In this document: piece by piece, positions 48,686 through 59,435 of the stretch | Layout: every line of letters starts with the position of its first letter | Position numbering within the stretch: the stretch's first letter is position 1 | Source: Bacillota bacterium | GTDB lineage: Bacteria > Bacillota > Clostridia > Christensenellales > UBA1242 | DNA: 64,000 nt | NCBI GenBank assembly: GCA_009780065.1 | Contig: WRAS01000001.1 | Span: 98,521 to 162,520, forward strand | Reading direction: 5' to 3' | Translations under genes and position numbers: made by a program | Notes under the pieces: generated by a model | Database searches by the model: none | What the model was told of the DNA's origin: nothing | The model's input: only the letters and a program-made list of their open reading frames with translations

Positions 48686-49087
48686 TTAAATTACATTCTG
48701 AATACTTGTTCCTATATTGAAACTGTGTGTCTTGACAAGGTATTGTACCTGCATAAGTCCTACCATGGCTTCTTCATCGTTGTTGAAATATATAAAATTC
48801 TTTGCGTATATGAGGTTGATGCTTACTTGGGAAAGATCGAAATGTCTTGCAAGCATACTTAGGCGCCTTTCTTGTCTTAGCCACCATTCATACATTTCAT
48901 TTATTTTTGCGATATTTTCTGGTGTGTCTATATCTTGCATCGCTTCGGACTGGGTTCGAATTGTGGCGACTAGTGTGTTGGTGTCGTTCTCGAGTTTATG
49001 GTAGGCACTCTGGATGACATGCTGTTCAAGTGATGCGAGCCCGACTAGGAGCGCGACCAGGAGGATTACAATAAAAAGACGGGTCAT
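48686..49087 (-). CDS. DUF4363-like protein
   Basis: N-terminal TM, EWWLRQERRLSMLARHFDLSQV; ATGA overlap with a DUF421 gene. Confidence 0.7.
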   Translation of the reverse strand: MTRLFIVILLVALLVGLASLEQHVIQSAYHKLENDTNTLVATIRTQSEAMQDIDTPENIAKINEMYEWWLRQERRLSMLARHFDLSQVSINLIYAKNFIYFNNDEEAMVGLMQVQYLVKTHSFNIGTSIQNVI

Positions 49088-49839
49088 ACGATTTCCTCCT
49101 TGGCATCCAGAATTTTCGCTTCTGTGTTTGTTGGGATTTTTATTTTGAAATTTTGCATTTCACCACCGTTTTTTTGTGCGTAAACGTCACCACCCTCACT
49201 TATGCAGGCGAAAATGATGTCTTCCAAATTGCACGACATCTTGTGTATTATGTCAGACACTGTACTCTCTATCTTGTGTTGTAAATTCATTTCCTTGAAA
49301 TTACGCTTAATAACTTTGCCGCTCTCTATGATATTATATTGGATTTCGGATTCCTCTGGCTTGAATTTATGGTCCTCCCTGGTTGCGGGCATGCTGGCGG
49401 CTTTTGGTATGACGGTTATTTTTCCATTGCGCTCTACTATTGCATAATTTATTCCGGATATGTCGAAATAGTTTAGATTTCTTAATTGCTCCATTAATTC
49501 TTCCGTGCTCATGTTTAAACTTTTTAATTCTTTAACACTTATGTTACCTTCATCGATGACAATCACGGGTTTTCCAGATATTATGTCACGCATAATAGCA
49601 CTTTTTTGAGTGATAAAACTGAAAATAAAGTGTACAACCGTAATCACGAGTAACGGAATTACCCCGTACCAGATTGGAATTGTCTGCTCTGCCATTGGTA
49701 TTGTTGCAAGGTCTGCAATTATCAATGTTATGACAAGTTCGAACGGTTCCATCTCGCCGAGTTGTCTTTTTCCCATGAGTCGCATAATAAAGATAACTAT
49801 CAGATATATAATTACGACACGCACCATTATATTGAACAT
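49084..49839 (-). CDS. DUF421/YetF-like membrane protein
   Basis: IRLMGKRQLGEMEPFELVITLIIADLATIPM typical of the family. Confidence 0.88.
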   Translation of the reverse strand: MFNIMVRVVIIYLIVIFIMRLMGKRQLGEMEPFELVITLIIADLATIPMAEQTIPIWYGVIPLLVITVVHFIFSFITQKSAIMRDIISGKPVIVIDEGNISVKELKSLNMSTEELMEQLRNLNYFDISGINYAIVERNGKITVIPKAASMPATREDHKFKPEESEIQYNIIESGKVIKRNFKEMNLQHKIESTVSDIIHKMSCNLEDIIFACISEGGDVYAQKNGGEMQNFKIKIPTNTEAKILDAKEEIV

Positions 49840-49881: not shown

Positions 49882-49938
49882 CTATAATAAACTCGTTATT
49901 ATAGAATACCTCTATATATGATTCATTCCATATATAGA
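49882..49938. repeat. Two adjacent perfect AT-rich hairpins
   Basis: CTATAATAA-actcg-TTATTATAG (49882-49904); TCTATATATG-attcattc-CATATATAGA (49911-49938). Confidence 0.85.
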
Positions 49939-49959
49939 AGATTTTTGTAAGATATGTAT

Positions 49960-50019
49960 TGTGGATAAATTGTGGACAATTTTCTGTAATTGTGGATAAA
50001 TAGTTGGTTATGTGGATAA
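49960..50019 (-). promoter_or_regulatory. DnaA-box cluster
   Basis: TGTGGATAA (= TTATCCACA) at 49960, 49991, 50011; TGTGGACAA at 49971. All one orientation, start spacings 11, 20, 20. Confidence 0.75.
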
Positions 50020-50050
50020 CTTGAAGATTTTAAATGAAAGTGAACTTTAA

Positions 50051-50078
50051 TTGACAAGTTTTGGTGGATTGTTATACT
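50051..50078 (+). promoter_or_regulatory. Predicted promoter, leaderless, of the MBL gene
   Basis: TTGACA-N16-TATACT-N7-ATG(50086). Confidence 0.7.
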
Positions 50079-50085
50079 TGTTTCT

Positions 50086-50805
50086 ATGAAGATTCAAATG
50101 ATTGGTACTGGTTCGCTGCATGCGCATAGTTTTAGTTCTTGCGCGTTAATTGACGATGCTATTTTGCTGGACTGCCCGAATGGTTTTGTAAAGAGACTTA
50201 GGAATATGGGGATTAATTTTAACAAAATTAAGGTTATGTTGATTACGCATTTTCATGGTGACCATGATTTTGATATGCCTTTTTTATTGCGTGAGTATAA
50301 AATGCTTATCAAAAGAACAGAGCCATTAATACTGGTTGCGCCAAAAGGGGCAAGGGAAAGATATTTAAAACTTTATGAGATGGCTTTTTCAAAATGTGAG
50401 GCGATATTCGACGATGCAAAAATAGAAATAATCGAGATTGACGAAACATTTTTGTCTAAAGGAATTATCATAGATGGATATGAGATTAGCGTGTATCACG
50501 TTGAACATAGTGTAACCGCATATGGTTACAAGATATCCAAAGAAAACAAAGTTGTTGCCTTTACCGGGGATACTGTGCTATGTGATAATTGTTATGAACT
50601 TATCAAGGGTGCGGGTATGGCTTTTGCGGATGTAACATTGCCAAATGCGGTGCCTGTTCATATGGGTATTGCGGATATTGAAAAATTGCGAGACACATTT
50701 CCAAATTGTAAAATAATGCCAACCCATATGTCAGAGGATGCAAGAGAAAAATTAAAGCAAGCAAATTTTGATGTGCCAAAAGATGGCGATGTTTTTGTTT
50801 TGTAA
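50086..50805 (+). CDS. MBL-fold (RNase Z-like) metallo-hydrolase
   Basis: MLITHFHGDHDFDMPFLL ... VAFTGDT ... MPTHMS. Confidence 0.85.
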   Translation: MKIQMIGTGSLHAHSFSSCALIDDAILLDCPNGFVKRLRNMGINFNKIKVMLITHFHGDHDFDMPFLLREYKMLIKRTEPLILVAPKGARERYLKLYEMAFSKCEAIFDDAKIEIIEIDETFLSKGIIIDGYEISVYHVEHSVTAYGYKISKENKVVAFTGDTVLCDNCYELIKGAGMAFADVTLPNAVPVHMGIADIEKLRDTFPNCKIMPTHMSEDAREKLKQANFDVPKDGDVFVL

Positions 50806-50849
50806 AGAACCAAATAGACGAAAGTGTATGGATACGTTATAATATTTGC

Positions 50850-51677
50850 ATGAAAGAAATTATCCCAATTACAGAGTTCTTTGATGACGAGCCGTATTTG
50901 ACCCCTGCCAAATCATTTGAAAGAAAAGAAACAACCCCAGCACGGTTAGAGCGAATTCAAAAAGGTAAAATAAAAACGGCCATAATCACATTTATTAGTC
51001 TAGAAAATCAAATGAATAATAAAGATGGACTAGTCGACATTATGAAGGATGCCGAGTGGTTTTTGAATATCCTCGGTGCCTCGGGTAATGCACCGACATA
51101 TATTTACAAGAATGTGATGATTGTATTCATGAAAGTGGGTGCACCTTATGCTGTCAGTGTAATAGAAGAACTTGGATATTTTGGAATCCAGAACTTTATT
51201 GCATTTGGAACCGCAGGTTGCATAGACCCAAAATTCGATACCAATAAAATGGTTGTTGTTAACCGTGCCATTCGTGACGAGGGGTCTAGTTATCATTACC
51301 TTCCGCCAAGCATCTATATTGATACCGATCCAATAGTTACTGCTGTTATCGAAAAGGTTTTAAAGGACAAAGGTATAGAATTCGAGCGCGGAATAACATG
51401 GACAACCGATGCGATATGGCGTGAAACAGGTAAGCGAATCGAGCGACGTCGTTCTCAAGGTGCAATTTCGGTTGAAATGGAATGCTCGGCATTCGCGGCG
51501 GCTGCAAAACGTCTAGGAAAAAGGTTTGGTCAATTTCTGTTTTTCAGTGATGGAATAGGTGAGAATAATGATGATTGGAAATGGATTCAATCAAGCGAAG
51601 AGCGAATGAATATTAAGGCTAGGCTAATCCACATTGGGATAGAGATGGCACAGGAATTAGAGAAGGCTAAAGGATAG
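50850..51677 (+). CDS. Nucleoside phosphorylase (PNP/UDP family)
   Basis: FIAFGTAGCIDP...VVVNRAIRDEGSSYHY...GAISVEMECSAFAAAAK. Confidence 0.88.
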   Translation: MKEIIPITEFFDDEPYLTPAKSFERKETTPARLERIQKGKIKTAIITFISLENQMNNKDGLVDIMKDAEWFLNILGASGNAPTYIYKNVMIVFMKVGAPYAVSVIEELGYFGIQNFIAFGTAGCIDPKFDTNKMVVVNRAIRDEGSSYHYLPPSIYIDTDPIVTAVIEKVLKDKGIEFERGITWTTDAIWRETGKRIERRRSQGAISVEMECSAFAAAAKRLGKRFGQFLFFSDGIGENNDDWKWIQSSEERMNIKARLIHIGIEMAQELEKAKG

Positions 51678-56540: not shown

Positions 56541-59435
56541 TTACTTTTCGCTGCGAACCGAGAATTCTTCGTCATTTGCGTAACTGGTGTGTTTTTTTGA
56601 GATATGGCGTTTGAATTTAAAGCGACGTAGAGAGAACGCAACAAGCGCGAAAATTAACGCCAATGCCATGATAATTGATGGAATGATTAGGAAATCCAAT
56701 TGTCCGTCTCGTCTCGTTGGATCTGGCTCCGGGTCAATTGGTGGAAGTGTTCTGTCCGCTTCGGTAACCACTCTGTGGTGGGCGTCGTAATCAATGTTAC
56801 GGCGAGCGTTGTTAAATGCGTCTTCATCAATTTGAACAAGATTTATGGATGCAATTTCGACCTCGGCCCATACTGCACGCCATTCGTTTCCAAATTCGAC
56901 AACAAGCGACAAATCCATAGTAGCTTCCGAGTGTATAAAGAAACTGATTGTTGTCCAGAACCCTGTACCATCTCCGGCAAGGTGGTATGTTGCCATTCGA
57001 TTAAGATAGTATGGTTTCATATCCACAAAGCCACCATCAAAACCATCCAGTCTAAAGGTAATTCCATAGTCTATGTCATCTGGTTCATCCATTAAAAACC
57101 CGTCTGTATTAAAATGTGGAATACGTTCATAGGTTATTGCTTGCCCAGTTCCCGGAATAATGCGCAATGTTATTTGGTATTCAAAAAACATTCCACCTTG
57201 AAGTTCTTCGGTAAGTGTGTTGGAAACAGTTGTGTGTTGGTGTTGGTTGGTTTGTATTCTTAGGATATTGTTAAAGACGGTTGCATTGGCTTGTCCTGTA
57301 GCATCTGGGACAAAGAACATGCTTTCTCCATCAATCTCGAAAGTTACAGGGTTGCCAAGGTTTGCATACGCGTTAACTTCGCTCTGGTTGATGGTGTCAC
57401 GTGTTGTAACCGACATGTTGTCAATAAAAACTATACCAGGTGCACTTTCCGTTTCTTCGGTTCCCATTATGAAAGAAATAGAAACACTGCGTGATGTGAA
57501 TTCTGAATCACGAATTGCAAATGAAAACGGCTGCCAAGGAACGAATCTGTCCAGTGGGGTTAGTGGGGTGTGACTGAGATTGATTCGAGAAATTTCGCGC
57601 CCGCCGAAATCTATGACAGCATAGAGCGTCATTGTGTCGCCCACATGCGGAACAAATTTTGCCATATCAAACCGGATGATGTTATATACACCGCGTTCTA
57701 GTGCGAATTCGTTACTTTCTAATCTTTGCCATGTATTACCACGGTTCTGAAGCATGTATATGTTGTTGTTTGGACTGAAGCCCCCTATAGGGCCTGGATT
57801 AATTGCATTACCATAGTTGCTTGCACCACCAAGACTGGCAAAGCGTGCCCAGTGTGTGTCTTGAGTGTTCACAATACCACTAAGTACAAGAGATTCTTCG
57901 CCATATGTATGTGTCCAACCGGTTGCACGAAGTGGGAAAGGTGTATTCACATTATTAATGGTTCCAAAGTTAAAGTGCGAGTTATTAATTGGGGAAACTG
58001 CCTCGGCTTCGTCACGCTGTGTTAGATAAAACACATGCAAGTCATGACGGTTTGATTCAAAGTATTCGTTGGATATGCGTACAATTGAAAAATCATCAAT
58101 TAAAATCCAGCCAGTAGAAAACACACCATCCTCGCCAATCCAGAATTCAATTTCCAGTTCAATGTCTTCTAATACGGCACCAAGTACAAAGAATGTATTA
58201 AGACTCCAATTGTTTCTGTTTGATTCTGGTTGGGTGATTGTTGGGATATGACCACTGTCAAAACGTTGGATTGTGTTTTGAAGGTGTGTAGGAACTTCGC
58301 GTGTGTCGCGTGTGCGGATGCTGGCGTTACCTAGGCTGTAGAAACTGATCATGTATACCAAATTACGCTCTATTGTAAATGGTGTCTCCAATTGTAGACT
58401 TGCATAGTTTTCATGAGCAGCCAACAACATAACATCATGTGCATGACCACCACTGTGTCCCCATAAAAAGTTAACATCTTCGAAATTCAGTGTGTTTGGC
58501 ACGTTTGGTGTCATTATTGACGTGTTCATGTGTACGTCTGTTTGACGGTCGAAGGCACGAACAAAATTACCAAAATCGTATTCGTCAGTTTTCTCGTCAT
58601 GTTGTCTTAAATCTATTTCACGAATAAAAATATTGTTGCGGTCTTGTTCGTCTTCTAGGCGTGTTTCAAAATCGCCTTGTGTTGTTTCCCAAACACGCAC
58701 ATTGTTATAAAATACGATACCACGGCTGGATGTGTCGCGTGTGCCAAGGTAAAGTCCAAGTTGCATGGATACGGCTTCTCGCGCGTCTGTACGTACAAAG
58801 AAACTTGCAGTTCGCCATGCACTGGCGTTTGGGTCATCCACGTATTGGTCTACGATTTGGTGAATTTGGATGCTGGTATCAATGTCTTGTGTTAGTGGGT
58901 GTGAGGATAAAAGATAAACTGCGTTGTTACTTGCAACAGCATAAAAGTCTACTTCGACAATAAAATAACCGCCAGCATAGAACTCGATATCTTGGCTGGT
59001 GAAGCCTACGTTGGCGACTTCGTTCTCGCTTCGGTTGGTCATGACTAGAAAGTTAATGTCTGTAAAGTCAGTGGGTGGAAGTGTTTGTGTAAAAGACAAA
59101 TTTTCAAGGTTGTTGCTGGAAATAAATTCGTCGTAACGGAACATATTTACAACACCGCCAAGTGCACGGCCAGAAGATCGTTCTTGGTTCCATCCAGGTA
59201 CAGAGTTCGAGAATACACTAGGTGCACTTTCGTAGAAATTCGGGTTGGCAATACTGTCAATTGGTCCGCCAGAAAATGCAACTAAGGATTGTTGTGGTGG
59301 GGTGTGGCGGAAAGCCTCTGGCGTAAATGCCCGAACCAAAGGAGTCAAAGCAGTGGATACAGGCAACGAAGCCAAAAGAAAAGCCATCGCAATTAAAAAG
59401 GCTAATATTTTTGTTCTCTTTCGTCCTACTATCAT
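56541..59435 (-). CDS. Large surface protein with carbohydrate-binding-like beta modules and C-terminal TM
   Basis: Signal peptide IAMAFLLASLPVSTALTPLVRA; repeated ARFxSLG/WxxxxFxxxxxExxSxxLxxxLG-type blocks; C-term IIPSIIMALALIFALVAFSLRRFKFKR. SD aaagga. Confidence 0.8.
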   Translation of the reverse strand: MIVGRKRTKILAFLIAMAFLLASLPVSTALTPLVRAFTPEAFRHTPPQQSLVAFSGGPIDSIANPNFYESAPSVFSNSVPGWNQERSSGRALGGVVNMFRYDEFISSNNLENLSFTQTLPPTDFTDINFLVMTNRSENEVANVGFTSQDIEFYAGGYFIVEVDFYAVASNNAVYLLSSHPLTQDIDTSIQIHQIVDQYVDDPNASAWRTASFFVRTDAREAVSMQLGLYLGTRDTSSRGIVFYNNVRVWETTQGDFETRLEDEQDRNNIFIREIDLRQHDEKTDEYDFGNFVRAFDRQTDVHMNTSIMTPNVPNTLNFEDVNFLWGHSGGHAHDVMLLAAHENYASLQLETPFTIERNLVYMISFYSLGNASIRTRDTREVPTHLQNTIQRFDSGHIPTITQPESNRNNWSLNTFFVLGAVLEDIELEIEFWIGEDGVFSTGWILIDDFSIVRISNEYFESNRHDLHVFYLTQRDEAEAVSPINNSHFNFGTINNVNTPFPLRATGWTHTYGEESLVLSGIVNTQDTHWARFASLGGASNYGNAINPGPIGGFSPNNNIYMLQNRGNTWQRLESNEFALERGVYNIIRFDMAKFVPHVGDTMTLYAVIDFGGREISRINLSHTPLTPLDRFVPWQPFSFAIRDSEFTSRSVSISFIMGTEETESAPGIVFIDNMSVTTRDTINQSEVNAYANLGNPVTFEIDGESMFFVPDATGQANATVFNNILRIQTNQHQHTTVSNTLTEELQGGMFFEYQITLRIIPGTGQAITYERIPHFNTDGFLMDEPDDIDYGITFRLDGFDGGFVDMKPYYLNRMATYHLAGDGTGFWTTISFFIHSEATMDLSLVVEFGNEWRAVWAEVEIASINLVQIDEDAFNNARRNIDYDAHHRVVTEADRTLPPIDPEPDPTRRDGQLDFLIIPSIIMALALIFALVAFSLRRFKFKRHISKKHTSYANDEEFSVRSEK

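Follow-up and report, generated by a model that had tools for sequence, protein, structure and literature searches.

A conserved, 20-bp-phased DnaA-box array predicted to bind DnaA outside oriC in a genus of Bacillota

Why should four DnaA boxes lie packed together between a membrane protein gene and a hydrolase gene? The boxes might mark an origin, serve a promoter, or hold DnaA at a place where nothing is initiated. They lie in a window of 64,000 nucleotides, which is the whole stretch of DNA that was analyzed. The window belongs to a 1.2 Mb assembly of 18 contigs (G000; 91.5% complete), which was scanned contig by contig. The preliminary description of the window had reported three exact boxes and one single-mismatch box, all in one orientation, with starts 11, 20 and 20 bp apart within 60 bp. 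It had also reported two perfect AT-rich hairpins on one side of them and a TTGACA/TATACT promoter on the other. All of these features were recovered (Table 1). The array of three TTATCCACA boxes and one TTGTCCACA box is entirely intergenic.

Table 1. Features of the array and its surroundings (window coordinates)
Feature	Positions	Strand	Details
DUF4363 gene	48686..49087	-	PF14276; overlaps the end of the DUF421 gene, same strand
DUF421 (YetF-like) membrane protein gene	49084..49839	-	Pfam PF04239, E 4.5e-30
Perfect AT-rich inverted repeat	49882..49904	.	CTATAATAA-5-TTATTATAG; 9-bp arms; between array and DUF421
Perfect AT-rich inverted repeat	49911..49938	.	TCTATATATG-8-CATATATAGA; 10-bp arms; between array and DUF421
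DnaA-box array	49960..50019	-	Four boxes; starts 11/20/20 bp apart
DnaA box	49960..49968	-	TTATCCACA; extra box, 11 bp from its neighbor
DnaA box	49971..49979	-	TTGTCCACA; single mismatch; in 20-bp phase
DnaA box	49991..49999	-	TTATCCACA; in 20-bp phase
DnaA box	50011..50019	-	TTATCCACA; in 20-bp phase
Sigma-70-like promoter of the MBL gene	50051..50078	+	TTGACA-16-TATACT; near consensus
MBL-fold hydrolase gene	50086..50805	+	RNase Z-like superfamily; under family cut-offs
Nucleoside phosphorylase-superfamily gene	50850..51677	+	PF01048

Exact DnaA boxes occur 31 times in G000, and about 27 are expected under an order-3 Markov model. Single boxes are thus background, and so are the remaining ones in the window. 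An exact same-strand triple within 60 bp is expected about 4e-6 times per genome. The array is the sole triple of this kind in the assembly and has the top cluster score in it. We also searched for the 20-bp-phased triple with one mismatch allowed; 2 of 396 genomes of the order matched, and the reversed-pattern control gave 0. The expectation and the control together rule out a chance origin of the array.

Two members of the genus are the metagenome-assembled genomes Bacillota bacterium Lab288P1bin80 and Lab288P1bin73, which presumably come from termite guts, as read from the isolate names. Our sample of the genus consists of five metagenome assemblies (G000 to G004). The array is found upstream of DUF421 in four of the five (G000, G001, G002 and G003), each time on the strand of DUF421 and phased at 20-21 bp; these genomes share common ancestry, and the four kept arrays are not independent events. 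Relative to the DUF421 ATG, the boxes start at -180/-160/-140/-129 in G000, at -282/-262/-241/-221 in G002, at -140/-120/-100 in G003, and at -103/-83/-63/-43 in G001, where the box at -103 has two mismatches. The distance from the last box to the ATG is about 34 bp in G001, 91 bp in G003, 120 bp in G000 and 212 bp in G002. When the arrays were compared between species in register, for which one G002 spacer base was removed, box positions were 92% identical and spacers 42%. This is the pattern expected if constraint falls on the boxes alone. With spacers so diverged, recent common descent is by itself an insufficient explanation for the kept arrays.

Outside these four genomes the array is missing from the locus. 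In G004 (65% complete), DUF421 sits on a short contig; the gene upstream of it is another one, and the array is absent. DUF421 homologs were found in 55 of the 61 genomes searched. No array accompanies DUF421 in other genera, including G008 and G018, the closest by DUF421 identity, and a search of 80 DUF421 loci and 30 genomes for a family-wide array returned the genus only. Its absence in G008 and G018 indicates that the array is dispensable at the level of the family. Conservation of the boxes in relatives, on which the preliminary description had made its reading depend, is therefore seen in most of the genus and ends at G004 and the other genera.

G000, G002 and G003 share the order uvrB-uvrA-DUF4363-DUF421-array-(variable)-MurJ. 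DUF421 and DUF4363 form a probable operon; DUF4363 still adjoins the locus in G002 and G003, and the DUF421 orthologs within the genus are 63-71% identical. Between array and MurJ, G000 has the MBL and phosphorylase genes, and G002 has an ORF with two MBL genes after it; the segment is empty in G003. There, MurJ adjoins the array, which is kept although both the MBL and the phosphorylase gene are missing from the locus. The array is thus independent of the MBL gene. Across the four genomes DUF421 is the constant neighbor, and the other side changes.

Could the site be the chromosome origin, or a secondary one? This reading would suit a cluster of perfect boxes flanked by AT-rich DNA that contains inverted repeats, and in G000 no strong box cluster was found between dnaA and dnaN. 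The GC skew argues against it. Over the first ~250 kb of the contig that carries the site (G000 C1), nearly every 5-kb bin has positive skew, with a few isolated exceptions. The site is at 148.5 kb; the skew is positive for ~150 kb to its left and 50 kb to its right, and the sign is unchanged at the site. The isolated near-zero bins all lie further right, up to 250 kb. The site-bearing contig of G002 (C5) has predominantly negative skew on both sides. On the dnaA contigs, the cumulative skew reaches its minimum at 108 kb in G002 C1 (dnaA at 46.5 kb) and at 91 kb in G001 C1 (dnaA at 108 kb), and it is probably in the neighborhood of this minimum, not at the array, that the origin lies. The gene context also argues against an origin. 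None of dnaA, dnaN, recF and parAB is near the array, whose neighbors are uvrA, DUF421, MBL and MurJ. In G000, dnaA-dnaN are on C5 and recF-parB-parA are at the start of C4 (named from their sequences).

Because the skew keeps its sign at the site in two species and dnaA lies elsewhere, we conclude from skew and gene context that the array site is not oriC. An origin here is hardly credible; it was ruled out by the skew at the site, the genes around it and, in G001 and G002, the position of the skew minima. The preliminary description had seen no dnaA or dnaN adjacent, had doubted an oriC, and had proposed locating dnaA and reading the GC skew, and both checks bore it out. Where a DNA-unwinding element might be looked for, the AT-rich flank has the two inverted repeats (at least two such perfect repeats arise in 0.4% of shuffles), which have no counterpart at the same place in G001, G002 or G003. 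As a separate observation, dnaA and dnaN are divergent on G000 C5, and the intergenic stretch between them (C5:7716-7989) has repeat-like sequence and no exact DnaA box.

The boxes stand just upstream of the strong MBL promoter, and the preliminary description had considered DnaA control of that gene. We regard this version as very unlikely. G003 retains the array without an MBL gene, on which ground an MBL promoter element was ruled out; in G002 another ORF separates the array from the MBL genes, and a near-consensus promoter does not obviously need an activator. An iteron-like array left from an integrated plasmid or phage origin would account for direct repeats with a 20-bp period, and is extremely improbable. 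It was rejected since essentially the 9-bp DnaA box alone repeats; the spacers differ between species, the flanking genes are chromosomal and conserved, and none of the neighbors was recognized as a Rep gene.

A more serious alternative is that the array acts mainly as an operator through which DnaA represses or activates the DUF421-DUF4363 operon, tying it to replication status in the manner of B. subtilis sda. In its favor, all four species that have the array carry it upstream of DUF421 and on the DUF421 strand, while the opposite neighbor varies, and in G001 the last box stops 34 bp before the ATG, where a promoter core would lie. Against this, the last box stands anywhere from about 34 to 212 bp from the ATG, no DUF421 promoter passed the scan in G000, and the linkage may merely reflect the conserved synteny uvrB-uvrA-DUF4363-DUF421-MurJ. 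We consider operator control as the main role rather unlikely. A bolder version is that, in this lineage of reduced genomes, the same-face, 20-bp-phased array is a dedicated switch that couples a YetF-family membrane operon to the state of replication, and that, with a three-box cluster linked to an antiporter gene (see below), it makes up a set for replication control peculiar to these bacteria. We regard this version as quite doubtful.

We find it fairly probable that the array is a lineage-specific DnaA-box cluster outside oriC, of the kind known from B. subtilis, and that its main effect is on how much DnaA is available. On this reading, selection has retained a predicted DnaA-binding cluster in the genus, which probably serves as a DnaA sink and may also control DUF421-DUF4363. 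In G000, DnaA (C5:6300-7715) has the ATPase domain and the C-terminal DNA-binding domain (TIGR00362, E 4e-132; PF08299, Bac_DnaA_C, E 4.8e-24). From what is known of the family, a DnaA with a normal DNA-binding domain should read canonical boxes. It would bind same-facing boxes about two helical turns apart, a spacing that would align adjacent DnaA molecules along almost the same side of the DNA and could allow cooperative binding. The locus would then hold DnaA away from oriC and double when the fork passes, which would help to time initiation as the B. subtilis clusters do. Lying upstream of DUF421-DUF4363, the array with DnaA on it may adjust that operon too. It counts somewhat against a pure sink that the array adjoins the 5' side of DUF421 in each of the four species, as would be expected under promoter control no less than under titration. 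We infer DnaA binding, titration and any effect on transcription alike from the sequences.

The closest known counterparts are in B. subtilis. Six DnaA-box clusters lie outside its oriC, and their joint deletion leads to early initiation (Okumura et al. 2012, as summarized in the reviews PMC5295017 and PMC13220808). The strongest DnaA-binding regions of that chromosome are those with more boxes (PMC4447404). The array shares with the B. subtilis clusters a Gram-positive genome, boxes away from oriC beside ordinary genes, and more than one cluster per genome; several boxes are packed into a short intergenic stretch beyond chance. It differs from them in its place at a DUF421/YetF-like locus, in the strict 20-bp, one-orientation phase of three boxes, and in its restriction to one genus; its binding of DnaA and its effect are predicted. 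With DnaA-regulated promoters such as that of B. subtilis sda it shares boxes upstream of a potentially DnaA-controlled gene; in contrast to these, its distance to the gene is variable and no DUF421 promoter was called in G000.

In E. coli, datA is likewise a non-coding chromosomal DnaA-box cluster outside oriC; it covers ~1 kb, has five boxes, requires IHF and drives hydrolysis of DnaA-ATP (PMC5295017). The array spans 60 bp, as compared with ~1 kb for datA. E. coli DARS1 and DARS2 are also short groups of DnaA boxes outside oriC, and their tuning of DnaA is putative for the array. The core of a DARS consists of boxes in mixed orientation, and DARS2 uses IHF and Fis. All four boxes of the array, unlike these, face one way. 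The preliminary description had leaned toward a DnaA-controlled promoter or a datA/DARS-like locus. A DnaA-binding regulatory or titration locus other than oriC is still the best reading of the site; control of the MBL gene fell with the G003 array, and identity with datA or DARS in the strict sense cannot be claimed.

The array has company in the genome. A second cluster in G000 (C2:223040-223071) has three boxes and lies at the 3' end of a gene for a Na/Ca exchanger (PF01699), upstream of rpmG-secE-nusG; one box faces two others with 11-12 bp spacing. The skew of C2 does not change at this cluster. The orthologs in G002, G003 and G008 have the same layout at their 3' ends, G004 has a variant of it, and none was found at this place in G001. 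Since the nusG operon of G003 is inverted, the cluster in that genome sits between converging 3' ends. It is therefore not a promoter element there. That the lineage retains DnaA-box clusters at non-promoter places favors a titration-type role.

Clusters of this kind in Bacillota have been documented mainly in B. subtilis. Conserved clusters in a 1.2 Mb, presumably termite-gut genome suggest that the holding of DnaA at fixed sites persists in small genomes. The regular 20-bp spacing would offer a simple substrate on which to relate box phase to DnaA cooperativity, and the loci are short and easy to test.

Some further observations concern DnaA boxes in the wider family and order. In seven other genera of the family, a DnaA-box cluster adjoins a VanW-domain gene (loci L079, L080, L081, L082, L083, L087 and L090). 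An origin at these clusters was considered and rejected, as the skew showed no change of sign at the cluster on the two contigs read (G011 C9 and G028 C3, with about a quarter of the G028 stretch being N). In several families of the order, cwlD-like amidase genes are adjoined by pairs or triples of DnaA boxes spaced at 12 bp (loci L069, L072, L073, L077, L085, L346 and L347), and in genus g12 such boxes are near parB.

Elsewhere in the window, an ORF of 964 amino acids (56541-59435) has a signal-like N-terminus and a C-terminal membrane segment, without a Pfam match. At the MBL gene, the -10 element ends at 50078, 7 bases ahead of the ATG at 50086, which makes a leaderless start plausible. Across the whole G000 genome, a TATAAT-like hexamer starts 16 to 11 bases before the ATG in 130 of the 320 first-in-operon ORFs without a Shine-Dalgarno-like motif, and in just 5 of the 141 with one. 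The hexamer start positions peak at -12 and -11. Leaderless-type starts thus appear to be widespread in G000, and the window has examples at 50073-50088 and 50839-50852.
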